DNA of 64,000 nucleotides from Clostridia bacterium. Lineage in GTDB: Bacteria > Bacillota > Clostridia > Christensenellales > Aristaeellaceae. The stretch lies in NCBI GenBank assembly GCA_017516765.1, contig JAFXBE010000016.1, forward strand, positions 1 to 64,000. The letters run 5' to 3'. Position numbers and translations under genes: made by a program. Under the pieces are notes generated by a model. That model made no database searches. It had not been told where the DNA came from and worked only from the letters and a program-made list of their open reading frames with translations. Below are positions 6,325 through 25,144 of the stretch, one piece after another. Within the stretch, counting starts at the first letter, position 1; every line of letters begins with the position of its first letter.

Positions 6325-6327
6325 AAC

Positions 6328-6359
6328 AAATGCGGGCATCCGGTGGGATGCCCGCATTT
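6328..6359 (-). terminator. Terminator hairpin between convergent genes
   Basis: Perfect 14-bp arms AAATGCGGGCATCC/GGATGCCCGCATTT with a GGTG loop. Read on the minus strand it is followed by GTTTTAC, so it best serves the minus-strand AraC gene, although it could act both ways. Confidence 0.65.
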
Positions 6360-6373
6360 CCACACTCACAAGG

Positions 6374-6408
6374 AACCGCCCGCCGGGAAAAACCCGGCGG
6401 GCGGTTTT
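6374..6408 (+). terminator. Terminator of the 480-6324 operon
   Basis: Perfect 14-bp arms AACCGCCCGCCGGG/CCCGGCGGGCGGTT around an A-rich loop, continuing into TTTT on the + strand. It sits 50 bp past the phosphorylase stop. Confidence 0.75.
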
Positions 6409-6416
6409 GCAAACAT

Positions 6417-7349
6417 TTACTTCTCCGGCAGCGTCCAGCCCCGGTACGGCAGGATCGATCCCTTTTTCGGGCTTGGGCGGTGGGCCGTTGCCCGGTACTG
6501 ACGGGGGCTCATGCCCATTACCTGCTGGAAATTGCGGTTAAAGCTGCTCACCGATGCCATGCCCACTGCCTGGGCGATGTTCAGCACCGGGTCGTTGGTA
6601 TTCACCAGCAGAATACACGCCTGATAGATCCTTGTGGAAATGACGAACTGGAGCGGCGTGGAGCCCATGCAGCTGAGGAACAGCCGCCGGAAATGGGTCT
6701 GGCTCAGGTGGCACAGATTGGCAAGGGTCGCCGCGTCGCAGGGCTCGGTAAAGTGGTCGTGGATGTATTCCAGCGCAGGCTTCAGCGGGAACACCTTGCT
6801 GTTTTTGACCGCAGGCTTGCCGATCTCCAGCTGCCGCCGCTGCAGCTCCGCCACCATGGCAAGGGAGTAGAGGCGGATCATCTGCTGGGCTTCGGCGGTG
6901 TTGCGCTTGGCCTCTTCCAGAAGGGTGTTGCACAAAAAGTGCAGCCGGGGATCGCTCTGGGCGGTAATCTTGATATACCGCCCGATATTGACCACGCTCT
7001 TGCTTTCGTATGCCTCGCCGGAGGGGAACACATCGGCTGCCAGCGCATCAAAATCCACAAACAGATAGCTCCACATGCTCTTGCAGCCCTTGGTGGAGCA
7101 GGTGGTGTGGGGAATGTGGCGGGGAATGATGAAAACATCCCCGGCAGAAAACTGCAGCGTCTCCTCCTCGAAGGTGAGCAGACCGCTGTCCGTGTGGCAG
7201 AAGCCGATCTCCAGACAATTATGGAAGTGCAACCGCCCCGAAGGAGTATCTGAAATGCGCCAGCTGTCGCCCGTAAGGCAGAGCACGGGAAAATCCAGCG
7301 GCAGCTCATAGATGCGGTATTCCACTGCGTTATGCTGACTACGCGCCAT
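6417..7349 (-). CDS. AraC-family transcriptional regulator
   Basis: This is a 310-residue regulator with an N-terminal cupin-like sensing half (LHFHNCLEIGFCHTDSG, AGDVFIIPRHIPHT) and a C-terminal double helix-turn-helix (LANLCHLSQTHFRRLFLSCMG, then VSSFNRNFQQVMGMSPRQYR). The start is placed at the ATG at 7349, because GAGGAG lies 12 bases upstream and the usual family length results. The alternatives are ATG 7358, whose ribosome-binding site is too close, and TTG 7421. It is divergent from the 7565-11154 transporter and lies near a copy of the operator motif also found at 301-340 and 14034-14072, so it is the best candidate regulator of those promoters (inference). Confidence 0.9.
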   Translation of the reverse strand: MARSQHNAVEYRIYELPLDFPVLCLTGDSWRISDTPSGRLHFHNCLEIGFCHTDSGLLTFEEETLQFSAGDVFIIPRHIPHTTCSTKGCKSMWSYLFVDFDALAADVFPSGEAYESKSVVNIGRYIKITAQSDPRLHFLCNTLLEEAKRNTAEAQQMIRLYSLAMVAELQRRQLEIGKPAVKNSKVFPLKPALEYIHDHFTEPCDAATLANLCHLSQTHFRRLFLSCMGSTPLQFVISTRIYQACILLVNTNDPVLNIAQAVGMASVSSFNRNFQQVMGMSPRQYRATAHRPSPKKGSILPYRGWTLPEK

Positions 7350-7439
7350 TTTATCCATCAACTCCTCGATAAATTGTCGGATTTGTCCCCTTCGGTACCA
7401 GTATATCATGGTTTCGCCCAAAATTGGAAGCCGTTTTCT

Positions 7440-7458
7440 GTATTGATGGTCGTTTCTG
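7440..7458 (-). promoter_or_regulatory. Half-site matching the 322-340 operator
   Basis: On the minus strand this reads CAGAAACGACCATCAATAC, 17 of 19 identical to 322-340. It sits between the AraC gene and the divergent transporter operon, upstream of the TATAAT at 7506. A related CAGAAAACGG follows 18 bases on. The phasing with a second half-site is poorer than at the other two sites. Confidence 0.5.
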
Positions 7459-7484
7459 CGCAGTTTCCAGTTGCTTTATGGTGG

Positions 7485-7511
7485 TTCACAAGGGGGTATG
7501 TAGGCTATAAT
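7485..7511 (+). promoter_or_regulatory. Promoter of the second transporter operon
   Basis: A consensus TATAAT at 7506-7511 has only a poor upstream hexamer (TTCACA at 7485-7490, 15-bp spacing). A good -10 with a degenerate -35 is the usual form of an AraC-activated promoter. Confidence 0.5.
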
Positions 7512-7564
7512 CAAGACAGATAACGAACGTAATACGGACAAAAATATTTTTTGGAGGTGGCGAT

Positions 7565-8512
7565 ATGGCACAGGGAACCGTGGTGAACCGTCCGGGACGC
7601 AGAAAAGTGCTGGGCGTCTATTTCCGAAACAACTGGCAGCTTTATCTGCTGCTGCTGATCCCTGTTATCTTTGTGATCGTATTCAAATATGCGGCCTACC
7701 CGGGTCTGCGCATGGCGTTTATGAACTACAAACCCGCCAAGGGCTACGCCGGCAGCAAATGGGTGGGCTGGGAGACCTTCGAAAAGATCTTCCGGGACAA
7801 GGACTTTCACCGTGCGCTGAAAAACTCGCTGGCCTTCAACTTTCTGGATCTGCTGGTAGGCTTCCCGGTGCCGATCATCCTTGCGCTGCTGCTGAACGAG
7901 CTGCGCTTCCCCCGCTATAAGAAGCTGACCCAGACGGTGCTGTATCTGCCCCACTTCCTCAGCTGGGTCATTATCGCTTCCGTTGCGCTGAACCTTTTCA
8001 AGCCCGAGACCGGTCTGGTGAACATCCTGATGAAAAAAGCAGGATGGATCGAGGAAGGCATCCCCTTCCTGACCGAGAAATGGCACTGGGCCGTTACCTA
8101 CCTGTTGATCGGTGTCTGGCAGAACATGGGCTGGGGCTCCATCATCTATCTGGCAGCCATCACCGGCATTGATGCCGAGCTGTACGAAGCCGCCACCATC
8201 GACGGCGCAGGCCGCCTGCGCAAGATCTGGAGCGTTACCCTGCCCTGCATCCGCGGCACAATGGTCACTTTGCTGATCATGAACCTGGGCCGCGTGATGG
8301 GTTCCAACTTCGAACGTCTGGATGCCTTCGGCAACGTACAGGTGAAGGACTTCCAGTACCAGCTCGCCATCTACATCTACGAAAAGGGTCTGGCGGGCAG
8401 CAACTTCAGCCGTGCCACGGCGGTGGGTCTGTTCCAGTCCCTGACCGGTCTTCTGCTGGTGCTGGGCAGCGACTGGGTATCCAAACGTCTTGGCGAAGAC
8501 GGCTTGCTGTAA
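7565..8512 (+). CDS. Sugar ABC transporter permease, LplB type
   Basis: This 315-residue permease has six hydrophobic segments and a canonical coupling loop YEAATIDGAGRLRKIWSVTLP. The N-terminal RNNWQLYLLLLIPVIFVIVFKY is typical of LplB proteins. The ATG at 7565 follows TTGGAGGTGG by 6 bases. It opens a three-gene operon (permease, permease, binding protein) divergent from the AraC gene at 6417-7349. No hydrolase is attached to this operon, so its cargo must be inferred from the surrounding pectin genes. Confidence 0.93.
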   Translation: MAQGTVVNRPGRRKVLGVYFRNNWQLYLLLLIPVIFVIVFKYAAYPGLRMAFMNYKPAKGYAGSKWVGWETFEKIFRDKDFHRALKNSLAFNFLDLLVGFPVPIILALLLNELRFPRYKKLTQTVLYLPHFLSWVIIASVALNLFKPETGLVNILMKKAGWIEEGIPFLTEKWHWAVTYLLIGVWQNMGWGSIIYLAAITGIDAELYEAATIDGAGRLRKIWSVTLPCIRGTMVTLLIMNLGRVMGSNFERLDAFGNVQVKDFQYQLAIYIYEKGLAGSNFSRATAVGLFQSLTGLLLVLGSDWVSKRLGEDGLL

Positions 8513-8526
8513 AGGAGGGCGGAAAG

Positions 8527-9450
8527 ATGCAAAACACCACCAAAGCTCCCTCGGCAGCCGAAAAGAAGCCATCCATCTGGACGGGCGTAAACCGGGTTCG
8601 CATCAGCGATTTTGTGATCGCCTTCGTGATCCTGATCCTCTCCCTTACCTGTATTCTCCCCTTCCTGCACGTAGCGGCAAAGAGTATCTCCTCCAACACG
8701 GCGGTCATGTCCAAGGCGGTCTACCTCTGGCCCAAGGATATCACCTTCGAAGCATACGCCTCCATCTTCCGGGATGGTCAGCTGGTGCATTCCATGTTCT
8801 ACACCATCGGCATCACCCTTGCCTTTACCCTTGTGGGCATGATCGTTACCATCTGCGCCGCCTATCCCCTGAGCATCAAAGGGTTGAAGGGCCGCCCCTT
8901 CTTCGCCTTCTTCCTGATGTTTACCATGTACTTCTCCGCCGGTCTGATCCCCGAATACCTGCTCATGGGCGATCTGAAGCTGCTCAACACCCCCTGGGTG
9001 CTGATCCTGCCCCTGGCTTTCTCCCCCTACAATATGCTGATCATGCGCTCGTTCCTCTCCTCTACCATCCCCGACAGCCTTTACGAGGCCGCCAAGCTGG
9101 ACGGCGCAGATCACTTCCAGATCCTTACCCGGATCGTGCTTCCCCTCTCCAAGCCCATCATCGCCACCCTGTCGCTGTTCTACGCCGTAGGCCGCTGGAA
9201 TGCCTACGCAGATGCCAAGTACTACATTACCAAAAAGGCGCTGCAGCCCCTGCAGTACCTGCTGAGCAACATGGTGCTCTCTTCGGGCACCGACGCCATC
9301 AGCCTGAGCGAAAATGCCGCCGTGGTCTCCACTCCCGAGGTACTCCAGGCCGCGACCATCATGTTCGCCACCCTGCCCATCATCATGGTATACCCCTTCG
9401 TGCAGAAGTATTTCGTGAAGGGCGCCATGATCGGCGCGGTAAAGGGCTGA
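8527..9450 (+). CDS. Sugar ABC transporter permease, LplC type
   Basis: A 307-residue permease beginning 14 bp after the upstream stop, with AAAGGAGGG before the ATG. It has six hydrophobic segments, the coupling loop YEAAKLDGADHFQILTRIVLP and the usual ending QKYFVKGAMIGAVKG. It forms the heterodimeric channel with the 7565-8512 product. The following 66 bp contain a TAATGACG/CGTCATTA hairpin (9466-9489) before the binding-protein gene. Confidence 0.93.
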   Translation: MQNTTKAPSAAEKKPSIWTGVNRVRISDFVIAFVILILSLTCILPFLHVAAKSISSNTAVMSKAVYLWPKDITFEAYASIFRDGQLVHSMFYTIGITLAFTLVGMIVTICAAYPLSIKGLKGRPFFAFFLMFTMYFSAGLIPEYLLMGDLKLLNTPWVLILPLAFSPYNMLIMRSFLSSTIPDSLYEAAKLDGADHFQILTRIVLPLSKPIIATLSLFYAVGRWNAYADAKYYITKKALQPLQYLLSNMVLSSGTDAISLSENAAVVSTPEVLQAATIMFATLPIIMVYPFVQKYFVKGAMIGAVKG

Positions 9451-9516
9451 TCCCAACCACGGAATAATGACGGTGGATGAGACGTCATTATCATAAATCA
9501 AAGGAGGAAACTGACT

Positions 9517-11154
9517 ATGAAGCGTATCGTTTCTCTGGTTCTGGCCATGATCATGGTGCTGAGCATGTTCGCCGTTGCGAATGCCGAAGCCGCCACCGGC
9601 ATGGCTGCCTGGGCTCCCTTCGAGGAGACCGTTACCATCACCGTGCCTGTGTACGACCGTGCAAAGGCCGGCTATCCCGCTGTTGACGACAACTACTGGA
9701 CCCAGTGGATCCAGAAGGAATTCGGCGACAAGTACAACATCGATGTGAACTATGTTGCCATTCCCCGCGGCGATGTTATGACCAAGTACAACATGCTCAT
9801 CGCCAACAAGGAAACCCCCACCATCATGATGGAGTATGACTACCCCAAGGTAGCCCAGTGGGCCACCGACGGCGCCATGCAGCCCATCGATCTGGAAGCC
9901 TTCGCAGCCGTTGCTCCCACCTACTACGGCAAGATGGTGGAAAACAACCAGCTGGGCTACACCGCTATGAACGGCGAAAACTACTTCGTCCTGTCCGAGC
10001 GTCCCTACTACAACACCAACTACACCTACTACACCTTCGTCCGTATGGACTGGCTGCGCGCCGTGGGCTATGACCATGTGCCCGCCTCCTACGCCGAGCA
10101 GGTGGATGCCATCAACAAGATCATCAACGCCGGTCTGACCGATCAGGCTCCTCTGGGTCTGGGCGTTCCCTCCGCTGCTTACGTTGCCAACTTCGCTTAC
10201 CACGATGCCGATCTGGTAGAATCCGAGTGGGCACAGCACTGCTCTCTGGGCACCGCCTCCATGACCTGGAAGCCCACCGAGCGCATGCTCAAGCGTCTGA
10301 ACGCTGAGTACAACATGGGCTGGTACTCCTCCGAGTTCGACCTGGCCGAGAACACCGCCGGTGCTGCTGCCGACCAGATGCAGACCGACTTCATCAACGG
10401 CAAGACCTACTCCTACGCCGGCTACATGGCTGCCAACGTGGACTGGCTGAAGGCCTTCTACGACAACAACCCCGGTGCCGAGCTGGCCATCGCTTCCGCC
10501 TACAGTGTGGAAGAAGAAGGCGTTGCCACCGCCCGCAACCGTGCCGACAACCCCTTCGGTATGATCGTCGGCTTCTCCGCTCTGGCTTCCGAAGACCAGC
10601 TGAAGGCTGCCTGGATGCTGATGGAGTGGATGATCCAGCCCGAGAACCTGTTTGTTCTGGAGAACGGCATTGAAGGCACCACCTATGTGATGGGCGAAAA
10701 CAACCTGCCTGTTGTTGACGGCTCCTACATGGGCGACGGCATGCTCAACCACAACATGAACATCGACATGACCTGCCTGGTACACGCCTCCAAGGTCGTG
10801 GGCACCGTGGAAGATTCCATCCGCGCCGTTGCTCCCCAGGGCCTGCCCCAGGATTTCGCCCAGGCGATGATCGACAGCTGGACCACCGGCACCAAGGCCA
10901 TCGCTGACAGCGGCAACGCTTACTCCGACCCCATCTTCGCCGTGGCTATCGAGTCCGAAGCCGAGTACAGCGCCACCCTGCTGTCTCTGTGGCAGGAATA
11001 CTACGCCAAGCTGGTGAAGTGCGATCCCGCCGAGTTCGATGCCCTCTACGCCGACCTGAGCCAGCAGTATCTGGACGCCGGCTACCAGGAGATCATCGAC
11101 GAGCGTCTGGAAGCCTACAACAACGGCCAGACCACCAAGCTGCCCCAGAAGTAA
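9517..11154 (+). CDS. Extracellular sugar-binding protein
   Basis: This 545-residue solute-binding protein is for the 7565-9450 permeases. The signal peptide MKRIVSLVLAMIMVLSMFAVANAEA ends in a signal peptidase I site (ANA) and has no lipobox cysteine. The mature part is rich in aromatic residues (YYNTNYTYYTFVRMDWLR), as expected for a protein that stacks on sugar rings. AAGGAGG precedes the ATG. It resembles the binding protein at 40537-42132 more than those at 2482 and 16181, for example in the shared VYDR/VFDRSIAG opening and the segment WMIQPENLFVLENG versus WMCQPENMFALQNG. A terminator follows 21 bp after the stop. Confidence 0.92.
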   Translation: MKRIVSLVLAMIMVLSMFAVANAEAATGMAAWAPFEETVTITVPVYDRAKAGYPAVDDNYWTQWIQKEFGDKYNIDVNYVAIPRGDVMTKYNMLIANKETPTIMMEYDYPKVAQWATDGAMQPIDLEAFAAVAPTYYGKMVENNQLGYTAMNGENYFVLSERPYYNTNYTYYTFVRMDWLRAVGYDHVPASYAEQVDAINKIINAGLTDQAPLGLGVPSAAYVANFAYHDADLVESEWAQHCSLGTASMTWKPTERMLKRLNAEYNMGWYSSEFDLAENTAGAAADQMQTDFINGKTYSYAGYMAANVDWLKAFYDNNPGAELAIASAYSVEEEGVATARNRADNPFGMIVGFSALASEDQLKAAWMLMEWMIQPENLFVLENGIEGTTYVMGENNLPVVDGSYMGDGMLNHNMNIDMTCLVHASKVVGTVEDSIRAVAPQGLPQDFAQAMIDSWTTGTKAIADSGNAYSDPIFAVAIESEAEYSATLLSLWQEYYAKLVKCDPAEFDALYADLSQQYLDAGYQEIIDERLEAYNNGQTTKLPQK

Positions 11155-11175
11155 TTCTGAAGCGGTAAAAAATTG

Positions 11176-11204
11176 CCGGGGCCCGAAAGGGTCCCGGTTT
11201 TTTT
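11176..11204 (+). terminator. Rho-independent terminator
   Basis: Stem CCGGGGCCC/GGGTCCCGG with a GAAA loop and a run of seven T, 21 bp past the binding-protein stop. Confidence 0.85.
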
Positions 11205-11219
11205 GTGTGTAGAAGGAAC

Positions 11220-11302
11220 GGAAGCGGGGCTCTGCCCCGCACCCCGCCCAAGGGGCTGAGCCCCTTGGGAATCCCGCATATGCGCCCGTTTCACGGGCGC
11301 AG
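11220..11302 (+). repeat. Interspersed repeat family A, copy 1
   Basis: Three consecutive stems: CGGGGCTCTGCCCCG; AAGGGGCTGAGCCCCTT followed by GGGAATCCCGC; then GCGCCCGTTTCACGGGCGC. The same order recurs at about 34905-35030, 56236-56322 and 60398-60480. All copies lie in gene-free DNA past 3' ends of genes. Confidence 0.7.
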
Positions 11303-11311
11303 GGATGATGG

Positions 11312-12016
11312 TTATGAATAGCACAGGATTGGTTCGGCGGTGCTTTTTCTTGTTCCGAAGATGAGATGGAAGGTTGGGTGCTGCAGATCATCGCCGGGGC
11401 GGTGTTGGCAGATCAGTGAATAGCCGTTTTCTTCGAGGGGGTACGCTCCTGCCAGCTTGGGCAGGAGTTGCAGGGCTGCCGCAAGCAGGTCTAAGGATGG
11501 CGTTGTTTGTTCTGAACCAAGACTTTGGATGTTGGGCTGCAGGATCAGATGGAGATCATACGCCGGTGAGGAAGGACGGTATACATGAATGAAACGGTTG
11601 CTGTATTCCTCCGATTCCTGCAATTCCTGTACTGTTTCGCTTACCAGCTCCTGCCCGGTGAACAGATGGAAATGCACCTGACCCACCTCCTGCCGCCTGC
11701 CGCCGTTGGCAACAAGGGTAAAACCGTTACGGTATGCCTCATGGTGCGTTGCCAGATACGCAACTGCTTTCCAAAGCTCTGCCCCATACACCGCATGTTT
11801 CTCCTGCGCCAGTTCCGTCAGATCGGCAATGGGCTTTCTTGGCGAGAGAATCACGTGGTTCGGGTAAGCAGGACAGGGATGTTCCATGACAAGGACCCGT
11901 TCTGAGCAGTACAGCTTCTTTCCCGGGATCGCCCATGGGCAGAAGCGGAACGCACTCCCCACCGCCTTACCCATCCATTTGCTTTTTGCCAGTCGGAACA
12001 GAAGCTGCTTTACCAC
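11312..12016 (-). CDS. HIT-like (histidine triad) family protein
   Basis: This is a 234-residue protein with a HIT-like core. Residues in the first half (KLYCSERVLVMEHPCPAYPNHVILSPRKPIADL) match the substrate-binding strand region, and VGQVHFHLFTG carries the HIT loop. The first histidine of the usual H-x-H-x-H is glutamine here (Q-V-H-F-H). A C-terminal extension (DLQHPTFHLIFG) follows. HIT proteins are nucleotidyl hydrolases or transferases; the exact substrate is unknown. The GTG at 12016 is chosen because GGGGAGGG precedes it and a TTGCTA-17-TATGCT promoter lies at 12053-12081. The longer reading frame would start inside the neighbouring terminator. Confidence 0.7.
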   Translation of the reverse strand: MVKQLLFRLAKSKWMGKAVGSAFRFCPWAIPGKKLYCSERVLVMEHPCPAYPNHVILSPRKPIADLTELAQEKHAVYGAELWKAVAYLATHHEAYRNGFTLVANGGRRQEVGQVHFHLFTGQELVSETVQELQESEEYSNRFIHVYRPSSPAYDLHLILQPNIQSLGSEQTTPSLDLLAAALQLLPKLAGAYPLEENGYSLICQHRPGDDLQHPTFHLIFGTRKSTAEPILCYS

Positions 12017-12052
12017 GTTCCACCCTCCCCTTTGCGGTTTGATTCTGTATGG

Positions 12053-12081
12053 AGCATAACACACCCTGCCCACAGTAGCAA
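12053..12081 (-). promoter_or_regulatory. Promoter of the HIT-like gene
   Basis: On the minus strand: TTGCTA (12081-12076), a 17-bp spacer and TATGCT (12058-12053), 37 bp before the GTG start at 12016. It supports the short gene model. Confidence 0.65.
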
Positions 12082-12096
12082 GGGATATACCTGCAA

Positions 12097-12130
12097 CAAA
12101 AAAGGAGCAGGTTGCTGGTCCTGCTCCTTT
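12097..12130 (-). terminator. Terminator of the CE12-GH105 gene
   Basis: Minus strand: perfect AAAGGAGCAGG/CCTGCTCCTTT arms running into TTTTTTG, about 100 bp past the stop at 12226. Confidence 0.85.
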
Positions 12131-12225
12131 GGCGGCGGCGACAGAGAAGAGGAGGGAGAGAACTGCCGCCGTTCCGGGAAGAAATGCTGCTTCGGCAAGC
12201 CGCCGCAGCATGGACTGGTCGTGGT

Positions 12226-13956
12226 TTACAGGGTGATAACGCCCTGCATCAGCTCGGTGATCATCAGGAAGGTAAGGCCCTGACCATACGCCGTGGGGGT
12301 AACGATAATGTCCTTGTAGTGCTGGAGATTGTAGCCCATGCCGGTGCCGCCGGAAACGCCCTGCACCGCGCCGGTCTCGTCGATCTGGTCAAGCACGGCC
12401 TGCGCCGCCAGCTTGCCCATCTCCACATACTTGTCTTCAGTCAGCACGCCCATGCGGATGCCTTTCATAACGCCGTAAGCGATGGCAGCGGTGGCGCTGG
12501 TCTCGCAATAGGTCTCCTCCACATCGATCAGGGTGGTGTAGAGACCGTTTACCCGCTGGTACTTCCACAGCGCCAGCACCTGATCCTGCCATGCGGAGAG
12601 GATCATGCGCATGGCGGCGTTATCCCGCTTGGTAATATCCTTCAGCTCGATAGCAGCGGCGGTGAACCAGGCGTTGCCGCGGGCCCACTTGGCATTGGCG
12701 TAGTTGTGGCGGCGGTCGAAGGTCCAGCCGTGGTAGAACAGACCGGTCACCTGATCCTGCAGGTAGCGCACGTGGATCAGGAACTGGTACTCCGCCTCGT
12801 CGATCCACTCAGGCTTGTTGAGCACAACGCCCGCCTTGGCAAGGAACAGACCCACCATGAACAGGGTATCGCACCAGAGCTGCTGGTAGTGCTTGTTCCA
12901 TACGGTGCAGTGCTGCAGACCGCCGTACTCGGTGCGGGGCATTTCCTCCAGCACCCACTTTGCCCAGCTTTCGATCACGGGCAGATAGGCGGGGTTTTTG
13001 GTCTCGTCGTACAGGCAGGTGAGGGTGAGCACGGGGGCAACGGTATTCACGTTGCGGTGGGGCTTTTCCTCACGGGAGAGCATATCGTCGTACCAGCCGG
13101 TCAGATAATCCAGAATGGACTTGTCGCCGCTCTGCTGATAGGTCTTGTAGATGCCGTAGAGGGCTACGCCGGTGGGCCACTCCCAGTTGTTCATGGTCAG
13201 GTGTCCGCGGGAGGGATCGTTGCCATCGGCACGCTGGAGCATGCCCAGTACCTTATCGGCAATTGCCTTGTAATCCATGATCGTATCTCCTTTCGGATTC
13301 TTCATATACCGCTGGAGGCGGGGCTCCCGGCTCATCATATCGGCGATCAGGGAGGCGATGCACTCTGCGCCGTACGCGTTGAAATGGGTGGGGTCGTCGT
13401 GCCCGTCGGGGAAATCCGGGTTCTCGCCGGGCTCCAGATGCACGAACAGCTTGCCGGTATCGGCTCTGCCAAGGCTTTCGTAAAGGGCGCGGCTCTTCAT
13501 CTTCAGATCAAGGAAGGGGACATTCAGTTCCCCTGCCACCTTGGCTGCAGCGGCGGGGTATTCGCCATGGGTGTAGAGCAGATCGTTCTCGCCCACATAC
13601 AGCCTGCGGCTGACAGGGCTCAGGATCACAGGCAGTGCACCTTTTTCCATGGCGGTATGGCAGTACATACGCAGAAAATCCTGATAGGAGCTGTCCGGGT
13701 CGGTATGCAGGGTGGGATCCTTCTTCTCGTCGTTGTGACCGAACTGGATCATCAGCACATCGCCGGGCTTCATGCCCTCGCGGACGGGATCGAAGCGGCC
13801 TTCATCCACAAAACTGCGGGTGCTTCGGCCGCTCATGGCGTGGTTCTGTACCTTCACGCCCTCTCTGAGAAACTTGGGCAGCGCCCAGCCCCAGCCACGG
13901 AACGGCGGCTTGTTATCTTCTACGGTAGAATCGCCGATGATATAGACGGTGGGCAT
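12226..13956 (-). CDS. Fusion: CE12 rhamnogalacturonan acetylesterase + GH105 unsaturated rhamnogalacturonyl hydrolase
   Basis: A 576-residue cytoplasmic two-domain protein. Residues 1-220 are a CE12 SGNH esterase: YIIGDSTVEDN with nucleophile S10, FGHNDEKKD as the oxyanion/N block at 72-80, and DPTHFNAYGA with D188 and H191. Residues 227-576 are a GH105 domain (YteR kind) with WCDTLFM (D363 is the likely acid) and WARGNAWF. GH105 enzymes remove unsaturated galacturonate from rhamnogalacturonan lyase products, and CE12 removes acetyls from the same chain. AAAGGAGCCACC precedes the ATG at 13956. A second strong site, AAAGGAG, precedes the in-frame ATG at 13278 exactly at the domain junction, so free GH105 may also be made. 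Confidence 0.9.
   Translation of the reverse strand: MPTVYIIGDSTVEDNKPPFRGWGWALPKFLREGVKVQNHAMSGRSTRSFVDEGRFDPVREGMKPGDVLMIQFGHNDEKKDPTLHTDPDSSYQDFLRMYCHTAMEKGALPVILSPVSRRLYVGENDLLYTHGEYPAAAAKVAGELNVPFLDLKMKSRALYESLGRADTGKLFVHLEPGENPDFPDGHDDPTHFNAYGAECIASLIADMMSREPRLQRYMKNPKGDTIMDYKAIADKVLGMLQRADGNDPSRGHLTMNNWEWPTGVALYGIYKTYQQSGDKSILDYLTGWYDDMLSREEKPHRNVNTVAPVLTLTCLYDETKNPAYLPVIESWAKWVLEEMPRTEYGGLQHCTVWNKHYQQLWCDTLFMVGLFLAKAGVVLNKPEWIDEAEYQFLIHVRYLQDQVTGLFYHGWTFDRRHNYANAKWARGNAWFTAAAIELKDITKRDNAAMRMILSAWQDQVLALWKYQRVNGLYTTLIDVEETYCETSATAAIAYGVMKGIRMGVLTEDKYVEMGKLAAQAVLDQIDETGAVQGVSGGTGMGYNLQHYKDIIVTPTAYGQGLTFLMITELMQGVITL
13276..13295 (-). promoter_or_regulatory. Internal ribosome-binding site and start codon at the domain junction
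   Basis: On the minus strand AAAGGAGATACGATC runs directly into ATG (13278) and the MDYKAIADKVLG start of GH105, without an intervening stop codon. The site codes for PKGDTI in the fusion. It is as strong as the upstream ribosome-binding site. Confidence 0.6.
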
Positions 13957-14002
13957 GGCGGTGGCTCCTTTCCGGTGTGAACGTGCATTTTTTGGCATAT
14001 TT

Positions 14003-14008
14003 ATTATA
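14003..14008 (-). promoter_or_regulatory. -10 element of the CE12-GH105 gene
   Basis: Minus-strand TATGCTATAAT, with TATAAT at 14008-14003, about 47 bp before the start codon. No good -35 is visible at 17 bp, consistent with the activator site at 14034-14072 lying directly upstream. Confidence 0.5.
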
Positions 14009-14033
14009 GCATACTGTCCCTGATGAAACTTCT

Positions 14034-14072
14034 CAAAAACATGTGACAATCATGCAAAAACAACCACTGAGC
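14034..14072 (+). promoter_or_regulatory. Putative AraC-type operator, second bipartite copy
   Basis: CAAAAACATGTGACAAT (from 14034) and CAAAAACAACCACTGAGC (from 14055) start exactly 21 bp apart, as do the half-sites at 301 and 322. The first half resembles 301-317 with one base deleted. It sits between the divergent CE12-GH105 and deacetylase genes and could serve both. Confidence 0.55.
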
Positions 14073-14133
14073 AGGGAAAGCGCAACCGTTGGCGAATGTT
14101 ATGGGCAAAAGCTCCTATGGAGGAGGAAACAAG

Positions 14134-14934
14134 ATGAATAAGGTATATTGCGCTTTTCCCGGCGGCAGGCACAAAGCCCTGACCATGAGCTACGACGACG
14201 GCAAGCAGCAGGATCGGCGATTAGTGAGCATTTTCAACCAAAACGGCATCAAGGGCACTTTCCATCTGAACAGCGGCATCTTTCACGACCCGGAGAGGAT
14301 CAAACCCGAAGAGATGCCCACCCTCTACGAGGGGCACGAAGTTGCCTGCCACACCGTGACCCACCCCACCATCGAACGCTGCCCCATGCCCGAGGTGATC
14401 TACGAGGTGCTGGACGACCGCAAGGCTCTGGAAGCCATCATGCATTATCCCGTGCGGGGTCTCAGCTACCCAAACGGTTCCCTGTCGGATGATATCGTTG
14501 CCATGCTGCCCCATACCGGCATCCGCTACAGCCGTATGGTGGGCAACACCGATGGTTTTGCCATCCCCGCCGATCCATACCGGTGGATGGCCACCTGCCA
14601 CCACAACCACCGCCTGATGGAGCTGGGTGAGCAGTTCCTTTCCCTGCACAAGCAGCAGTATCTCTATCTGATGTATGTCTGGGGCCACAGCTACGAATTT
14701 GACCTGATGGACAACTGGCAGCTGATAGAGGATTTCTGCCGCATGATGGGCGGGAAGGATGATATCTGGTACTGCACCAACATCCAACTGATGGATTGTC
14801 TGGACGATTTCAAGCGGCTGCAATTCGCCGCTGATCATTCTTTCGTTTATAACCCAAACGCCCGGGACTGCTGGATCCGTGTTCGAAACACCGATTCCGT
14901 ATGCATCCCTGCCGGGCAGACCGTAACACTGTAA
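14134..14934 (+). CDS. Polysaccharide deacetylase family protein (CE4/NodB-like)
   Basis: A 266-residue cytoplasmic protein with the NodB-type motifs: MSYDDG (D21, D22), HEVACHTVTH (metal ligands H73 and H77), LSYPNG and WGHSYEFD. These enzymes remove N- or O-acetyl groups with a divalent metal. The ATG at 14134 follows GGAGGAAAC; the upstream ATG lacks a site. It is the first gene of a pair with the PL22-like lyase (14948), divergent from the CE12-GH105 gene and near the shared operator, so removal of acetyl groups from pectic oligosaccharides is plausible. There is no signal peptide, which argues against a role on the cell wall. Confidence 0.82.
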   Translation: MNKVYCAFPGGRHKALTMSYDDGKQQDRRLVSIFNQNGIKGTFHLNSGIFHDPERIKPEEMPTLYEGHEVACHTVTHPTIERCPMPEVIYEVLDDRKALEAIMHYPVRGLSYPNGSLSDDIVAMLPHTGIRYSRMVGNTDGFAIPADPYRWMATCHHNHRLMELGEQFLSLHKQQYLYLMYVWGHSYEFDLMDNWQLIEDFCRMMGGKDDIWYCTNIQLMDCLDDFKRLQFAADHSFVYNPNARDCWIRVRNTDSVCIPAGQTVTL

Positions 14935-14947
14935 GGAGGTATCCCCC

Positions 14948-15958
14948 ATGATCGAGTACCGCGACCCCATTACCGGCTATCTGGTGCGCCGCTACACCGA
15001 AGGCCCGGAACGCAATGCCAAGCTCTACTTCACCACCGAAAATTTCTCCACCGATGATCAATACTTCTACTTCAACAAGGATGTGGAAGGCGGACAGGAG
15101 ACCCACCGTGTCGCGCTTGCCAGCGGCGAGGTGACCCGGGTGACCGACAAGGCGTACAGCGGCTTTGCCCTTGACCGGGAAAAGAACATTGCCTATGTAT
15201 GCCGCAACGAGACCGAAGTCTTTGCCGTGGATCTTTCCACCAACGAACTGACCAAAGTAGGCGATCTGCCTGCGGGCGGCAAGATCACCGGGCATCTGAC
15301 CAGCGCCGATACCGGGCGCATTGCCTGCAGCTATCACCTTGCCAACAAGATCTATGCCCTGGTGATCCTGGATCCCGGCAAGGAAGCGGAGATCGTCTAC
15401 CAAAGCGATTACCGTCTGGGCCATGCCCAGATCTGCCCCAGCGATGAAAACCTGATCTTCTATATCCACGAGACCGAAGGTGATGCCTTCCAGCGCACCT
15501 TTATGTGCGATGTGAAGGAGCATTATGTGCGCCCATGGTATGTGGAGCACCCCAACGAGTGGATCACCCACGAGGTATGGGCAGCCGACGGCACCGAAAT
15601 GGCCTTTATGAAGCTCCACGGCAACATTCTGATCGGCGACAAGGACGGCAGACACTTCGACCACGCCGCCTACAGCGAGCAGCTGCTCCATCCCTGCCTG
15701 AGCCGGGACAAGAAATGGCTGGTAGCCGACCGCATCAGCTATCTGGGCGTTACCGTGCAAGAGGGCATCGTGCTCATCGAGCGCGCCACCGGCAAGCAGA
15801 AGCTGATCGCCACCACCGGCAGTTGCAAGACCGGCGCAGATCACCAGCACCCCTCCTTCAACCGTGCAGGCAATATGGTGCTGTTCAGCAACCCGGACAG
15901 GAATGGTATTGCGCAGGTATGCACCATCGATCTGGAACAGGTGATGAAAGACTGGTGA
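14948..15958 (+). CDS. Oligogalacturonate lyase-like protein (PL22 seven-bladed propeller)
   Basis: This 336-residue cytoplasmic protein is built of repeated beta-propeller blades (YFYFNKDVEGGQETHRVAL, AYVCRNETEVFAVDL, HQHPSFNRAGNMVLFSNPDRNG). The HAQICPSDENLIFYIHE segment and the final HPSFN..VLFSN blade resemble PL22 oligogalacturonide lyases, which cleave short pectic oligomers by beta-elimination. It is somewhat shorter than the roughly 385-residue family average. AAGGAGG precedes the ATG, 13 bp after the deacetylase stop, so the two are co-transcribed. The family is likely. The substrate (oligogalacturonate or a rhamnogalacturonan disaccharide) is not shown by the sequence. Confidence 0.8.
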   Translation: MIEYRDPITGYLVRRYTEGPERNAKLYFTTENFSTDDQYFYFNKDVEGGQETHRVALASGEVTRVTDKAYSGFALDREKNIAYVCRNETEVFAVDLSTNELTKVGDLPAGGKITGHLTSADTGRIACSYHLANKIYALVILDPGKEAEIVYQSDYRLGHAQICPSDENLIFYIHETEGDAFQRTFMCDVKEHYVRPWYVEHPNEWITHEVWAADGTEMAFMKLHGNILIGDKDGRHFDHAAYSEQLLHPCLSRDKKWLVADRISYLGVTVQEGIVLIERATGKQKLIATTGSCKTGADHQHPSFNRAGNMVLFSNPDRNGIAQVCTIDLEQVMKDW

Positions 15959-16012
15959 CCCTTGGTTCTGCCCTTGGCAGACAACACAGCATATAACAGA
16001 TACACAAGCAGG

Positions 16013-16054
16013 CAGCCCGCAGAGAACGATCTTCTCTGCGGGCTGCTCTTGTTT
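16013..16054 (+). terminator. Terminator of the deacetylase-PL22 pair
   Basis: Perfect 14-bp arms CAGCCCGCAGAGAA/TTCTCTGCGGGCTG followed by CTCTTGTTTG. Confidence 0.75.
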
Positions 16055-16094
16055 GTGTCGGTTTTTCTTACTTACGGCAAGTCTTTATTGCACA

Positions 16095-16125
16095 GAAAAG
16101 GGAGACCGACTTACGTCGGTCTCCC
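16095..16125 (-). terminator. Terminator of the third transporter operon
   Basis: Arms GGGAGACCGAC/GTCGGTCTCCC; on the minus strand the stem is followed by TTTTC. It lies 55 bp past the binding-protein stop at 16181. Confidence 0.75.
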
Positions 16126-16180
16126 CGATCCAGTTACTTAATGCTTACGCATTTTGTACCGGTTGGTTGGTAATCAGTAA

Positions 16181-17641
16181 TTACTGAGCCTTCCAAGCGT
16201 TGAACTGGTTCTGGAACTCGGCAAGGCAGGTCTGGAAGCCAGCGGCATCCAGGTCAGCCTGGTACTGAGCGATGTAATCTTCCACAGCGTCAGCGGGAAC
16301 GCCACCGTTCTCCAGCACGAAGCCGTACTGATCGAACAGAGCCTGGCAAGCAGCGTATTCAGCCTCAACGGGGGTCTTGTTGAAGCGGAAGCCAGCAGCA
16401 ACAGAGGTCACAGCGCCGCCGTTGAAGGCGTCGTACAGGTCAGCCTTGTTGTCGGGCTCGTTGTAGAGGGGGGTAACGATGGTAGCGTTGGCAGACTCCC
16501 ACATGGAGTGGTTGTACTTTTCGCTGTTCTGGGTTACGTGCTGGATGGTCTGGCCTTCTTCCTGAGTGTAAGTGAAGTCCTCGCCCTCGATACCGAAGGT
16601 GTACATGTCAGCCAGCTTGCTGTCGGTGTACAGCAGACCCATGAAGTCGATGGCAGCCTTGATCTTGGCTTCATCGGTGGTGGTCACGGCGTAGCAGGAG
16701 CCCAGAGCGGAGGTGCTGTGAGCATAGCGCTGGGTGGCGGGAGTCATAACAACTTCCTGGCCATAGCGGCTGTTGGCTTCGGCGTTAACGGGGATGTCGG
16801 TCCACCAGGACATGGCCCAATCCTGAGACTGGGTGGTGGTGTCGGTGGTAACCTTGGTCCAGTCATCCTCGTGGATGAGGCCCATCTCGCCCCACTTGCC
16901 CATCAGCTTGCAGAAATCGACGTAATCGGCGGTAGCCAGTACGTTCACAACTTCGCCAGTAGCGCGATCCACAGCAAAGAAGTTGGTGGAAGCATCAGCG
17001 GTGAAGAAGTCGAACTTGTCGATGTTCCAGCGATAGAACATGGAGGTCTTCTGGGTGAGGTAGGGATACTTGATGCCGGCTTCCTTGGCCTGGATGAGCA
17101 TGGGCTCAACGTCAGCCAGGGTCTTCACGGTGCTGATGTCCCAGCCGAACTGGTCCACAACAGCCTTGCGGAACATGAAGTCGTAGCCTTCTACGTTATC
17201 CTTGTAAACGGGGATGAAGTAGTTGCGGCCGTCGTACTTGGTGGCTTCCCACTGGCCTTCGGCCATGGAGCCGTACAGAGCGGTGCCGGGCAGGTAATCG
17301 GTGATGTCGGTCACAGCGTTGGCGGGAACCAGATCGTTGGTGCCGATGATGGACTCCCAGGAAGCAGTCCACAGCAGGTCGATCTCGTTGTTGGCCAGAG
17401 CCAGCTTGGCCTGGTCTTCGTACTCACCGGCCATGTCGGTCAGAACGATTTCAACATTGATCTTGTCAGCGATGTAGGCGTTGATGGCATCCTGAACCTT
17501 CTTGACCTGATCCTGATCAGGCTGAGCCAGGTTGAAGCACTTGCGCCATACGTTGATGACGACCTTCTCTTCAGCAGAGGCCACGGCCACAACGGACAGC
17601 AGCATGCAAAGAGCCAGCACCAGAGAAACGAGCTTTTTCAT
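16181..17641 (-). CDS. Extracellular sugar-binding protein
   Basis: A 486-residue solute-binding protein and the last gene of the 16181-19578 operon (permease, permease, binding protein). The signal peptide MKKLVSLVLALCMLLSVVAVASAEE has a cysteine at position 12, inside the hydrophobic core and not in a lipobox context (L-A-L-C), and ends in ASA, so cleavage by signal peptidase I is expected. The mature protein has several W and Y clusters. GGGAGGAA precedes the ATG. The cargo is not evident from the sequence; position between the pectin lyase genes and the rhamnose operon suggests a rhamnose-containing glycan. Confidence 0.92.
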   Translation of the reverse strand: MKKLVSLVLALCMLLSVVAVASAEEKVVINVWRKCFNLAQPDQDQVKKVQDAINAYIADKINVEIVLTDMAGEYEDQAKLALANNEIDLLWTASWESIIGTNDLVPANAVTDITDYLPGTALYGSMAEGQWEATKYDGRNYFIPVYKDNVEGYDFMFRKAVVDQFGWDISTVKTLADVEPMLIQAKEAGIKYPYLTQKTSMFYRWNIDKFDFFTADASTNFFAVDRATGEVVNVLATADYVDFCKLMGKWGEMGLIHEDDWTKVTTDTTTQSQDWAMSWWTDIPVNAEANSRYGQEVVMTPATQRYAHSTSALGSCYAVTTTDEAKIKAAIDFMGLLYTDSKLADMYTFGIEGEDFTYTQEEGQTIQHVTQNSEKYNHSMWESANATIVTPLYNEPDNKADLYDAFNGGAVTSVAAGFRFNKTPVEAEYAACQALFDQYGFVLENGGVPADAVEDYIAQYQADLDAAGFQTCLAEFQNQFNAWKAQ

Positions 17642-17714
17642 GGTAAATTCCTCCCATATTATTTATTCTTAACATTCCGTTTGCAGGAATGTCAGAAACA
17701 AGGTGAAGCGGGCA

Positions 17715-18656
17715 TCAGCCCTTGACGGAACCAACGGTAAGGCCCTTGATGAAGTACTTCTGGAAGAAGGGGTACACCACCATGATGGGGCCGATAACCA
17801 CGATAACCGTAGCCATGGTGGAAGAGTACTGGGGAATGGCACCGCCCATGGCAGCACGGACAGAAGCGGGCACGTTGGTGTTGTTCAGAAGGAAAGAGAT
17901 GTTCTTCTGAATGTTAACAAGCAGCAGCTGCAGGGGCTTGAGCTTGTCTTCGCTGATGTAGAGCAGAGCGTTCTGCCAGTCGTTCCAGTAGGTGGTAGCC
18001 AGCATGAAGCCAACAGCAGCAAGGGAGGGCTTCAGCAGCGGCAGGGTAATCTGGAAGAAAGTGCGGTAGTCGCCGGCACCGTCGATCTTGGCGGCTTCCA
18101 TCAGCTCACCGGGGATGCTGTTGGCGATGTAGGTACGAAGAATGATAACATTCATCGTGGAAACACACAAGGGGAGAATCAGCGCCAGAAGGCTGTTCTT
18201 GAGGCCGTAGTAACGGGTGAAGATCATGTAGCCGGAAAGCTGACCGCCGTTGAACAGCATGGGGATGAGCAGGAACAGGCTCAGGAAGCCGGCCAGCTTG
18301 AAGCCCTTACGGCTGATGGAGTAAGCATACATACTCATGACCAGCAGACCGAAGAAGGTACCGAACACGGTAACGAAGATGGTAACCGCATAAGAGGTGA
18401 ACAGCTTGTTGCCGTACTTGAGCACGGAGTTCATACCGACCATGGACCACTTCTCGGGCCAGAAGGAGAAACCGTTCTGGTTGATGGTCATTTCGTCGGT
18501 GAAGGCAGAGATGAAGGTGAGCAGCACCGGTGCGAAGCAGAACAGCGTGAACAGCACAACGAAGAATGTCAGAATGGTCTGACCCACGATCTGCTTGGGC
18601 TGAATCTTCATGCCGGTGTTAAACTTAACGGGGGCGTTGGCAGCCGTCTTTTCCAT
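17715..18656 (-). CDS. Sugar ABC transporter permease, LplC type
   Basis: A 313-residue permease with a polar N-terminus, six hydrophobic segments, the coupling loop MEAAKIDGAGDYRTFFQITLP and the family ending QKYFIKGLTVGSVKG. The ATG at 18656 follows GAAAGGAGTGGG; the longer ORF reads into the upstream permease gene. It sits 16 bp after the 18673-19578 gene and 73 bp before the binding-protein gene. Confidence 0.93.
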   Translation of the reverse strand: MEKTAANAPVKFNTGMKIQPKQIVGQTILTFFVVLFTLFCFAPVLLTFISAFTDEMTINQNGFSFWPEKWSMVGMNSVLKYGNKLFTSYAVTIFVTVFGTFFGLLVMSMYAYSISRKGFKLAGFLSLFLLIPMLFNGGQLSGYMIFTRYYGLKNSLLALILPLCVSTMNVIILRTYIANSIPGELMEAAKIDGAGDYRTFFQITLPLLKPSLAAVGFMLATTYWNDWQNALLYISEDKLKPLQLLLVNIQKNISFLLNNTNVPASVRAAMGGAIPQYSSTMATVIVVIGPIMVVYPFFQKYFIKGLTVGSVKG

Positions 18657-18672
18657 GGATCCCACTCCTTTC

Positions 18673-19578
18673 TTAGAACAGTGCGTTTTCGGGCTCGATC
18701 TTGCGAACCATCCAGTTGGCAAAGAGCATCAGCAGGAGACCAATCACAGACTGGAAGAAAGAAGTAGCAGCCGGGAAGCCAAAGTTGGAGCTCTTGAAGA
18801 TCTGACCCAGCACGTAGGAGTCGATAACCTGCGTGGTGGAGTACAGGATGCCGTTGTTACGGGTGACCTGATAGAACAGACCGGTATCGGAACGCATGAC
18901 ATTGCCGACGGAGAGCAGCAGCATAACGGTGATCATGGGCACCAGGGAAGGAATGGTGATGTGGCGGATCTGCTGCCACTTGTTGGCACCGTCGATCTCG
19001 GCGGCCTCGTAGAGGGAGGTATCGATACCTGCCAGCACGGACATATAAAGCACGGAGCCGTAACCGGTATCCTTCCAGATCTTAACGATCAGCAGGATCC
19101 AGGGCCAGTAGGCAGCCTTGGAGTAGAAGCTGACATTCAGACCCAGCGCATTGTTGATAAGACCGGTATCCTTGGCAAGGAATGCATACACGATGAACTG
19201 TACCGCAGCGTAGGAGATGAACACGGGGATGATCATCAGCGTCTGCATGGTCTTGGCGGCCTTCTTGAGGCGCATCTGGTCGATCATGATGGCCAGCGCC
19301 ACGTTGAGGAAGGTGCCCACCACGGTGAACAGCAGGTAGTACAGCACCGTGTTCTTGGTCATGTTGACGAAGGTCTTCCAAGACTGGATGAGGAATTGGA
19401 AGTTATCCAGACCGCACCAGGGGCTGGCGAAGATGCCCAGCTGGTAGTCGAACTTCTTGAATGCCATCACCAGACCGGCCATGGGCACGTACATAATGAA
19501 GAACAGGATCAGGAAGCCGGGAAGAGCCATAACGATATGGGCTCTGTGTTTCCAAAGATTTCCGAAAAATGCTTTCAC
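18673..19578 (-). CDS. Sugar ABC transporter permease, LplB type (GTG start)
   Basis: A 301-residue permease and the first gene of its operon. It has six hydrophobic segments and the coupling loop YEAAEIDGANKWQQIRHITIP. The start is the GTG at 19578, preceded by AAAGGAGATGG. The ORF remains open upstream for 94 codons, but that part has no family resemblance and runs through the regulatory region. It is divergent from the AraC gene at 20094, across a 515-bp intergenic region rich in GTACAA motifs. Confidence 0.9.
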   Translation of the reverse strand: MKAFFGNLWKHRAHIVMALPGFLILFFIMYVPMAGLVMAFKKFDYQLGIFASPWCGLDNFQFLIQSWKTFVNMTKNTVLYYLLFTVVGTFLNVALAIMIDQMRLKKAAKTMQTLMIIPVFISYAAVQFIVYAFLAKDTGLINNALGLNVSFYSKAAYWPWILLIVKIWKDTGYGSVLYMSVLAGIDTSLYEAAEIDGANKWQQIRHITIPSLVPMITVMLLLSVGNVMRSDTGLFYQVTRNNGILYSTTQVIDSYVLGQIFKSSNFGFPAATSFFQSVIGLLLMLFANWMVRKIEPENALF

Positions 19579-20093
19579 GGTGCCATCTCCTTTGGAATCG
19601 AAGATCATTCCTAATTTATTGTTACTGGGGCGTAGCCAGTTACAATCGGATGCGAGGCGGACGCCCCCTGATTTTTTGATTTGCCTGAAAACTGGAAAGC
19701 CGCCGATACAGCCTGCGGGAACCGGAACAACAACAACCGGTGAGAAAAACCGCAAGGATCGGTGGTTTTTGGAACGATCACCGCCGAAAACGTATTCGTA
19801 CTTTTCGGCCTTCGCTCCTTTTGTCATAGATATCATAACTCCATGCTGTACAAATTGCAAGTGTTTTTTCTAAAATTTTGTGTATTATTTTTTGAAACTT
19901 GTACGTTTTGTCTGATGTTTTCGTTTAAAAGTACAATCTTTCGGGAGATTTACGAAAATATTTTCGTACAAATTACGCGGGCTATTTTTTCGTCAACTGC
20001 CCTTCGGATCTCTGTGCCGCAGGTGCAGATCCCACACTTGCGCTTCCGGCGGCGATTGGTTAAAATAGGTTCATCAACGAGAGGTGATACCAA
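19579..20093. other. Long divergent regulatory region with a palindrome and GTACAA motifs
   Basis: This 515-bp gene-free stretch is more AT-rich than its surroundings, especially 19830-19980. It contains a perfect 18-bp palindrome at 19951-19968 and several GTACAA/TTGTAC elements: GTACAAATT at 19848-19856 and 19966-19974, TTGTAC at 19899-19904, and GTACAA at 19931-19936. It must hold the promoters of both the transporter operon (minus) and the AraC gene (plus). No unambiguous -35/-10 pair was seen. Confidence 0.6.
19951..19968. promoter_or_regulatory. Perfect 18-bp palindrome (candidate operator)
   Basis: TACGAAAATATTTTCGTA is fully symmetric. It overlaps the downstream GTACAAATT copy (from 19966). 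No T-run or long GC stem follows it, so a DNA-protein site is more likely than a terminator. Confidence 0.55.
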
Positions 20094-21065
20094 ATGAACC
20101 AAACCATTCTGATGCGACTTTCCGCCATTACGGACGAGGAGCAGGCCATCCTTGCAGGCAAACCGCTGGAGCCTTCCCGCTACGGCGAGGGCGAGCTTTT
20201 GACCGTATCCGGGCAGCGGCTGCTGCCCTCCTCCCGGATGATCACCCTGCGTCCCCACACCCGGTTTATTGCCTTTCCCGAGCACCGGCACGACTATGTG
20301 GAGATGCTCTACATGGTTACCGGACAGACGGTGCACCACTTTCCCGGCAAGGAGCCGCTGATCCTTGGGGCGGGCGATGTGCTGCTGATGGGGCGCAACG
20401 CCCAGCACGCCATTGAGCGCTGCGGCGAAGGGGACGTGGGCGTGAACCTGATCATCCAGCCCGCCTTTCTGGACGAAGCCCAGCGCGCCATCGGTTCGGG
20501 CAATGCGCTGGGGCGGTTTTTGCTGGAAAACATCAAGGAGGGCAAGACGGGGCTGCCCTATCTGCATTTCCGGGGCGGCGAACACCCCAGCGTGGAGGCG
20601 TTGATGGAAAGCATCGTCTGCGCACTGGCAAGCCCCAAACCCACCTCCCAGCGCATTCTGAAAACCTCCATCACCCTGCTTTTGATGTATATGCTGGAAT
20701 ATACCGACCATCTGAAAATGCCCCCTTCCGGTGGCAACGAGCTGGTGGTGAGCCTGCTGGAGGAGATCCGCCACCGGTACGCCTCGGTGAACCTGACCGA
20801 ATTTGCCCGATCCCACCACGTATCCGCGCCCTATCTGAGCCAGACCGTGCGCAAGGCCACCGGGCTTACCCCCACCCAGCACCTGCAGCGGCGGCGGATC
20901 GATCAGGCAAAGAAACTCTTGCGGGACACCGATCTTTCCGTTACCGAGGTGTGCTATCAGGTGGGCTACAGCAATACCAGCCACTTTTACCAGCTGTTCA
21001 CCCAGCTCTGCGGCATGAACCCCACCGAATACCGACATGTTAATTCAGGGCGCGAAAAGCCATAA
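20094..21065 (+). CDS. AraC-family transcriptional regulator, likely of the rhamnose genes
   Basis: A 323-residue regulator. The N-terminal cupin contains FPEHRHDYVEMLYMVTG and GAGDVLLMGRNAQHAIERC. The C-terminal helix-turn-helix pair reads LTEFARSHHVSAPYLSQTVRKATG and SVTEVCYQVGYSNTSHFYQLFTQ, ending in the GMNPTEYR family signature. GAGAGGTGATACC precedes the ATG. The gene lies 87 bp upstream of rhaM in the same orientation and is divergent from the 16181-19578 transporter, so it may respond to rhamnose or a rhamnosyl oligosaccharide and control both sides (inference). Confidence 0.9.
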   Translation: MNQTILMRLSAITDEEQAILAGKPLEPSRYGEGELLTVSGQRLLPSSRMITLRPHTRFIAFPEHRHDYVEMLYMVTGQTVHHFPGKEPLILGAGDVLLMGRNAQHAIERCGEGDVGVNLIIQPAFLDEAQRAIGSGNALGRFLLENIKEGKTGLPYLHFRGGEHPSVEALMESIVCALASPKPTSQRILKTSITLLLMYMLEYTDHLKMPPSGGNELVVSLLEEIRHRYASVNLTEFARSHHVSAPYLSQTVRKATGLTPTQHLQRRRIDQAKKLLRDTDLSVTEVCYQVGYSNTSHFYQLFTQLCGMNPTEYRHVNSGREKP

Positions 21066-21152
21066 AGTGGCGGCATATCGCAACAGGATGCCCTGTGCTA
21101 CAATAAACCCAGCCAAACGTTCACAATTCCTATATTCAAAGGAGGCTGACCC

Positions 21153-21470
21153 ATGGAACGCTTTGCCTGGATGGGACGCATCAAGCCCGGGATGAAGGCG
21201 GAATATAAACGCCGCCACGACGAGATCTGGCCCGAGATGACCGAGCTGCTCAAGAGCGCGGGCATCTGCAACTACACCATCTGGTCGGACGGAGACATTC
21301 TTTTTGGCTACTACGAGTGCGAAAAAGGCATCGCCTTTGCCGAAAAGACCCAGGCCCAGAGCCCGGTGGTGGACCGGTGGAACGAATACATGGACGATGT
21401 GCTGGAGCTGGTGATGGATCCCGTAACCGGCGCGCAGCCCAAGCTCGAGCAGATGTTCCTGATGGAGTAA
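21153..21470 (+). CDS. rhaM: L-rhamnose mutarotase
   Basis: A 105-residue protein of the RhaM/YiiL family, which interconverts alpha and beta anomers of L-rhamnose so that the isomerase gets the correct form. The family opening MERFAWMGRIKPGMKAEYKRRHDEIWPEM is present with its histidine in RRHDEIWPEM, followed by NYTIWSDGDILFGYYE and, near the C-terminus, VVDRWNEYMDDVLE. The length matches the family (about 104). AAAGGAGG precedes the ATG. It is the first gene of the rhaM-rhaB-rhaA-rhaD operon; a weak TACAAT -10 lies at about 21099-21104. Confidence 0.95.
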   Translation: MERFAWMGRIKPGMKAEYKRRHDEIWPEMTELLKSAGICNYTIWSDGDILFGYYECEKGIAFAEKTQAQSPVVDRWNEYMDDVLELVMDPVTGAQPKLEQMFLME

Positions 21471-21475
21471 CCGCT

Positions 21476-22900: not shown

Positions 22901-22937
22901 TCGCATTTCTATTATATATTGAAAGGATGAAAACACC

Positions 22938-24203: not shown

Positions 24204-24280
24204 GACCCGACCCAGCCGGAGTGCAGGGGTTCTCCCCCGCTCCGGCGAACCCCGACCAAGACACACAGGAGGCAACAATC

Positions 24281-25105: not shown

Positions 25106-25144
25106 CGATATGCGGGGGGCTGCCTTCCCCCGTCTGATCCGAAC

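Follow-up and report, generated by a model that had tools for sequence, protein, structure and literature searches.

A bifunctional GH105-CE12 protein has been described in a Bacteroides plebeius-like polysaccharide-utilization locus, together with PL11, PL26 and GH28 (PMC7531118). In-frame dual-product genes have been described as well, such as the genes for Cas11, made from cas8/cas10 (PMC11899642), and for RepR/RepR' of pIGRK (PMC6854812), and lysA241 within lysA of phage Ms6 (PMC3111421). Thus, there are precedents both for GH105-CE12 bifunctional proteins, with the domains in the opposite order to that reported here, and for genes that give two products in frame. CE12 and GH105 genes also occur as adjacent pairs with the order and strand of the fusion described below, in Clostridiales DTU070, Paenibacillus turpanensis and three genomes of our set (G098, G058 and G631). 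These genes are often close or overlapping, with an ATGA overlap in G098, but stop codons separate them.

Here we analysed a CE12-GH105 fusion encoded in a stretch of 64,000 nucleotides from a Clostridia bacterium, hereafter called the window. We found no paper on this fusion in the open-access literature. The same two activities are predicted in one polypeptide as in the Bacteroides plebeius-like protein; however, the latter is GH105-first, going by its name, whereas in our case CE12 comes first, the origin appears to be a lost stop codon and the start of the GH105 gene has been retained. The statement of an earlier note on this DNA that the two enzymes normally occur as separate proteins is correct for this lineage, but the bifunctional protein just cited is on record. 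As in the Cas11, RepR' and lysA241 systems, one frame contains an internal start, preceded by an SD in the clearest cases, from which a separate C-terminal product could be made. Those three products have been shown experimentally, whereas the present fusion is known from its sequence, consists of two recognisable enzymes and has the old ribosome-binding site as its linker.

Domain organization of the fused protein

The fused gene (12226..13956, minus strand) starts with an ATG at 13956, and its stop codon ends at 12226. Its 576 codons contain no internal stop and code for a protein of about 65 kDa (expected mass). The single frame holding both domains reported in the earlier note is therefore real, and we add that it lies on the minus strand, which had been left out. 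Pfam analyses yielded a Lipase_GDSL_2 match at residues 7-198 and a Glyco_hydro_88 match at residues 254-570. The Glyco_hydro_88 family spans GH88 and GH105.

The CE12 half (13300..13956, minus strand; residues 1-219) is an SGNH esterase whose nearest solved relative, by both sequence and fold, is the CE12 rhamnogalacturonan acetylesterase 1DEO. The fold match (E 1.3e-12, TM-score 0.79 by target length) corresponds to a CE12-type fold. The SGNH residues are Ser10 of the GDS motif, Gly43, Asn75 of a GHND motif and the Asp188-x-x-His191 pair; they are invariant across the aligned fused copies, and the first three motifs align to 1DEO. The GH105 half (12226..13278, minus strand) has 350 residues and an expected mass of about 40 kDa if internally initiated. 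Its nearest solved relatives by sequence and fold are 3QWT, 3PMM and YteR, with a match to the (alpha/alpha)6-barrel of 3QWT (E 9.6e-31, TM-score 0.87 by target). Asp363 of the fused protein corresponds to the catalytic Asp143 of YteR in alignments to 1NC5 and 2GH4, the D143N mutant. The GH105 half scores 398 bits against NCBIfam NF051900 ('beta-galactosidase BglB'), below the curated cut-off of 420, and is not assigned to that family. Thus, each half has the fold and the catalytic motif residues of a characterized enzyme, YteR-type GH105 and the Aspergillus aculeatus rhamnogalacturonan acetylesterase (CE12), respectively; the latter are separate single-domain proteins, whereas the halves are fused here and their substrate is predicted.

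The fused protein has no signal peptide. As the GDS motif occupies residues 8-10, there is no space for one, and the fused enzyme should therefore be cytoplasmic. In the AlphaFold model, whose mean pLDDT is 89, both domains are predicted confidently, and pLDDT values fall below 50 only at residues 224-226, which belong to the translated ribosome-binding site, and at residues 352-355. The predicted pTM of 0.63 fits with two domains without fixed orientation.

Junction and expression signals

The DNA at the junction reads CCGAAAGGAGATACGATC-ATG. Codon 220 (AAT, Asn; 13297..13299, minus strand) lies where the free CE12 relatives have their TAA stop. It is followed by the six linker codons 221-226 (P-K-G-D-T-I; 13279..13296, minus strand), whose DNA CCGAAAGGAGATACGATC is the translated ribosome-binding site; its SD is conserved, and the segment is among the least confident of the model. 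The SD itself, GAAAGGAG, is found within the linker at 13294-13287 (minus strand). The internal ATG (Met227; 13276..13278, minus strand) occupies the position at which free GH105 proteins begin (MDYK...).

This internal start is in frame and has a strong, normally spaced SD, as expected for a dual-product gene. Ranked by SD:anti-SD duplex energy, the ATG at 13278 (-12.9 kcal/mol) comes first among the 490 in-frame internal ATGs of the 51 genes predicted by codon usage in the window, which alone served as background, and it outdoes 46 of the 51 true gene starts. This agrees with its description in the earlier note as a near-ideal initiation site. It is on a par with the CE12 start of the same gene (-12.6 kcal/mol), with which it shares an identical 8-nt SD (GAAAGGAG) and 8-nt spacing. 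The RNA structure around the internal start is unremarkable, with 39% of internal ATGs equally or more open. An apparent excess of unpairedness of the SD (0.61 versus a mean of 0.43) vanished with longer sequence context and was discarded as evidence.

A promoter-like site, TTGAGA-17-TATGCT (14008..14036, minus strand), is located upstream of the fused gene. It overlaps a TATAAT-type motif conserved upstream of all ten fusions that we identified (see below), and all ten likewise carry an AAAGGAG as SD region ahead of the CE12 start (in the window at 13962..13973, minus strand). A terminator-like hairpin of 11 pairs followed by a T tract (12101..12130, minus strand) is found about 95 nt past the stop codon, so that the transcript of the fused gene looks monocistronic. 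No promoter-like site was found within the fused gene on its own strand. With no inner promoter and a terminator behind the gene, the internal ribosome-binding site is the obvious route to a free GH105 protein. The listed start of the HIT-domain ORF at 11312-12211 of the window overlaps this terminator; its true start is probably nearer to VKQLLFRL, as judged by the MMKQLLFRL of its relative in G002.

Distribution and origin of the fusion

Our search for the fusion covered 200 related genomes, 308 genomes from the same family and 391 from the class. Ten copies were found in eight genomes of ruminant-gut Clostridia, all of them MAGs, which belong to only two genera. Genus g1 comprises the carriers G000 (the genome of the window), G002 and G010, and genus g24 comprises G078, G102 (two copies), G308, G314 and G315 (two copies); both G102 copies reach the contig end within GH105. 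The named records are MAGs such as SIG359, SIG362, RGIG9056, RGIG8955 and RGIG5426, and the eight assemblies stem from several studies and hosts. The search of the 391 genomes of the class yielded no further in-frame fusion. Elsewhere in the family, GH105 genes are mostly solitary and have their own leader, and other Firmicutes have CE12 and GH105 genes side by side with stops between them.

Two observations on these copies deserve comment. Between G000 and G010 (locus L041), the GH105 half is 99.7% identical at the protein level while 31% of four-fold sites differ; purifying selection on this half is very strong and far exceeds that on the CE12 half. One of the G102 copies (G102:C13, L034) looks mosaic, its CE12 half being nearest to genus g1 and its GH105 half to G102:C14 (L033) and G078, as might result from recombination between copies or from a chimeric MAG contig.

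Comparison with homologues, as proposed in the earlier note, revealed where the separating stop had been. The free CE12 proteins of three g24 species (G317, G312 and G310) are exactly 219 residues long and align with the fusion without gaps, and their TAA falls at codon 220 of the fusion. Among the fusions, two sister copies that lack the SD have CGG at this codon, and the remaining eight have AAT, CAA, CAT or CAC. In G002 it is CAA, and a single base change from TAA to CAA suffices for stop loss. On the other side of the junction, Met227 lines up with the first residue of the free GH105 proteins of G312, G318 and G317. All CE12 halves of the fusions form one clade (100/99), and in the GH105 tree the fusions cluster with three unfused g24 genes (100/99), which is compatible with a single origin. 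In the distant relative G631, the paired CE12 and GH105 genes share a reading frame but are kept apart by stop codons.

The fusion would thus have arisen most simply by loss of the stop codon in a tight CE12-GH105 gene pair. An ancestral pair transcribed together, CE12 then GH105, would have lost the CE12 stop, for instance by a change from TAA to CAA, and the 18 nt between this stop and the GH105 start, including the ribosome-binding site of GH105, would have become a translated linker of six residues. We consider it distinctly less probable, though worth keeping in mind, that an intervening gene was deleted, an origin that would fit either pattern of products. It is suggested by G317, of the genus that holds most fusions, in which CE12, a GH32-type gene and GH105 occur in a row (L068:2457-5786) and CE12 stops at the same codon. 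However, such a deletion needs precision, as the breakpoint falls right at the stop and the ribosome-binding site is complete; moreover, CE12-GH105 pairs are adjacent in other lineages (G098, G058, G013 and G631), and the GH32 gene of G317 may be a later insertion. A third possibility would be a recent neutral loss of the stop confined to one strain, or a stop concealed by faulty assembly; the earlier note had listed a recent stop loss and a sequencing error, and the sequences are indeed MAGs. The junction is nevertheless open in all ten copies from eight assemblies, with constant spacing from K219 to residue 227 and no frame break, and the nine copies other than that of the window exclude a hidden stop. 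The relatives refute this explanation, to which we attach next to no credence. The CE12 halves of the ten copies, in two genera, differ from one another at 16-51% of four-fold sites, and the fusion is therefore not recent; of the recent loss of a stop in a coupled pair put forward earlier, the stop loss stands, with the old ribosome-binding site as linker and Met227 as the free start, and the recency does not.

Conservation of the internal start

The internal ATG is present in seven of the ten copies, each of which also has the SD. The other three have ACG (G102:C14) or TCC (G308 and G314) in its place; all three have also lost the SD, and their fusion is still open. On the CE12 tree, SD and ATG were lost in two separate events.

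Gly223, whose codon lies within the SD, is encoded by GGA in all seven ATG-bearing copies. This codon is rare in the fused gene, with one to four uses among roughly 30-50 glycines per copy. Out of 152 four-fold columns, 27 contain A, and the Gly223 column is the only one with A in all seven copies, the next best having A in four. The ATG-bearing copies differ from one another at 16-43% of four-fold sites. With substitution models fitted to the other four-fold sites of the gene, GTR puts the chance of A in all seven copies given A in one at 2.4e-3 for the CE12 half and 8e-4 for the whole gene, and F81 puts it at 0.05-0.09, figures that refer to seven related copies (perhaps five independent lines), of which G102:C13 looks mosaic. 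GTR is favoured over F81 by BIC (997 versus 1015 and 2183 versus 2246). These data make a good but not overwhelming case for selection on the SD itself in copies that possess the ATG. The internal signal is conserved beyond protein constraint, as would be expected of a dual-product gene, though lost in three of the ten copies.

We also compared the presence of the internal start with that of other GH105 genes. In the three g1 genomes with the fusion, which have kept the internal start, the next-best GH105 is just 28-29% identical. G308 and G314, which have lost it, carry a free GH105 paralog (46-48%), and the start-less copy of G102 (C14) is found alongside a second copy that retains the start. 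The internal start has been kept in G078 and G315 despite GH105 relatives (41% and 34%, respectively). Loss of the internal start tracks a free GH105 paralog, as would fit a requirement for some free GH105, but G308 and G314 are sisters, such that this represents one or two events and is only a lead.

One product or two

We favour, with some confidence, a fixed cytoplasmic bifunctional enzyme that arose by stop loss in a gene pair and whose preserved internal site also yields free GH105 in most lineages, that of the window among them. Ribosomes would initiate at the internal site as well, and one mRNA would give the fusion of about 65 kDa and extra free GH105 of about 40 kDa. We infer this initiation in the cell, and a need for both products, from the conservation data, which suggest that free GH105 is probably co-produced in most lineages. 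The dual product proposed in the earlier note thus gains indirect support from the constraint on the rare codon of the SD and from the fact that SD and ATG are either both kept or both lost, while the three copies without internal start speak against it. Two lineages dropped the internal start yet kept the fusion, and free GH105 is therefore not universally needed. Ribosomes elongating from the CE12 start may in addition hide the internal site, which counts against a dual product.

Alternatively, the fusion might be the only product made in meaningful amounts, with the SD and ATG at the junction as undecayed leftovers of the free GH105 start. This agrees with the retention of the fusion in the two lineages that lost the site; also, the linker residues P-K-G may be held for protein reasons, and the ATG-bearing copies are kin. 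Nevertheless, the rare glycine codon of the SD persists in seven of seven copies despite 16-43% divergence at four-fold sites, as no other such codon does, the chance of this under GTR is about 1e-3, and SD and ATG disappear jointly, which makes mere leftovers unlikely in our opinion. The SD might instead cause a translational pause between the domains, its pairing with the anti-SD aiding co-translational folding of CE12. Its position exactly at the domain boundary and the synonymous constraint are what such a role would leave as a trace, but a pause does not predict that SD loss coincides with ATG loss, and the copies without SD retain the fused frame; we regard this role as improbable. An extension of our favoured reading, which we put forward as a tentative proposal that could well be wrong, is that the gene is held between the two-gene and one-gene states: the translated SD that forms the linker would be maintained by selection, such that one mRNA gives a tethered pair plus surplus free GH105, and the internal start would be dropped where another free GH105 exists.

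These genes form a natural series from operon neighbours to a multi-domain enzyme, with separate genes, overlapping genes, and fused genes with and without the old start. They also illustrate how simple the initial linker in a fusion can be, namely a translated ribosome-binding site. Whether the fused gene still supplies the free downstream enzyme, tuning the stoichiometry, becomes a testable question, with silent changes to the SD sequence of the internal start (CCGAAGGGC). Ordinary genome annotation would list the fusion alone.

Genomic context and predicted substrate

The fusion is surrounded by genes for a GH112-type phosphorylase, a solute-binding protein, predicted permeases, a polysaccharide deacetylase, a PL22-like protein and an AraC regulator, and by rhaM, a rhamnulokinase-type FGGY kinase gene (rhaB-like) and rhaA. 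These surroundings are a rhamnogalacturonan/rhamnose cluster, and the fusion adjoins the same rhamnose genes in several g24 genomes. From the enzyme families and these neighbours, we infer a substrate of the rhamnogalacturonan or pectin type. After import, oligosaccharides of rhamnogalacturonan or pectin would be deacetylated by the CE12 half, and the GH105 half would remove the unsaturated uronic acid at their non-reducing end. A plasmid search gave no match, and an Rfam search of positions 6000-26000 found nothing. No tRNA was found in the window, and hence no tRNA-linked island.

The protein encoded at 14948-15958 of the window has only a partial match to oligogalacturonate lyase (Pectate_lyase22, residues 145-222) and is possibly a diverged PL22-like enzyme. 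Genes for relatives of this protein adjoin the fused gene at several other loci (L040, L041, L042 and L070). The gene at 4174-6324 of the window, in the rhamnose cluster, is of the GH112 type (lacto-N-biose phosphorylase family); a galactosyl-rhamnose phosphorylase would fit this context.
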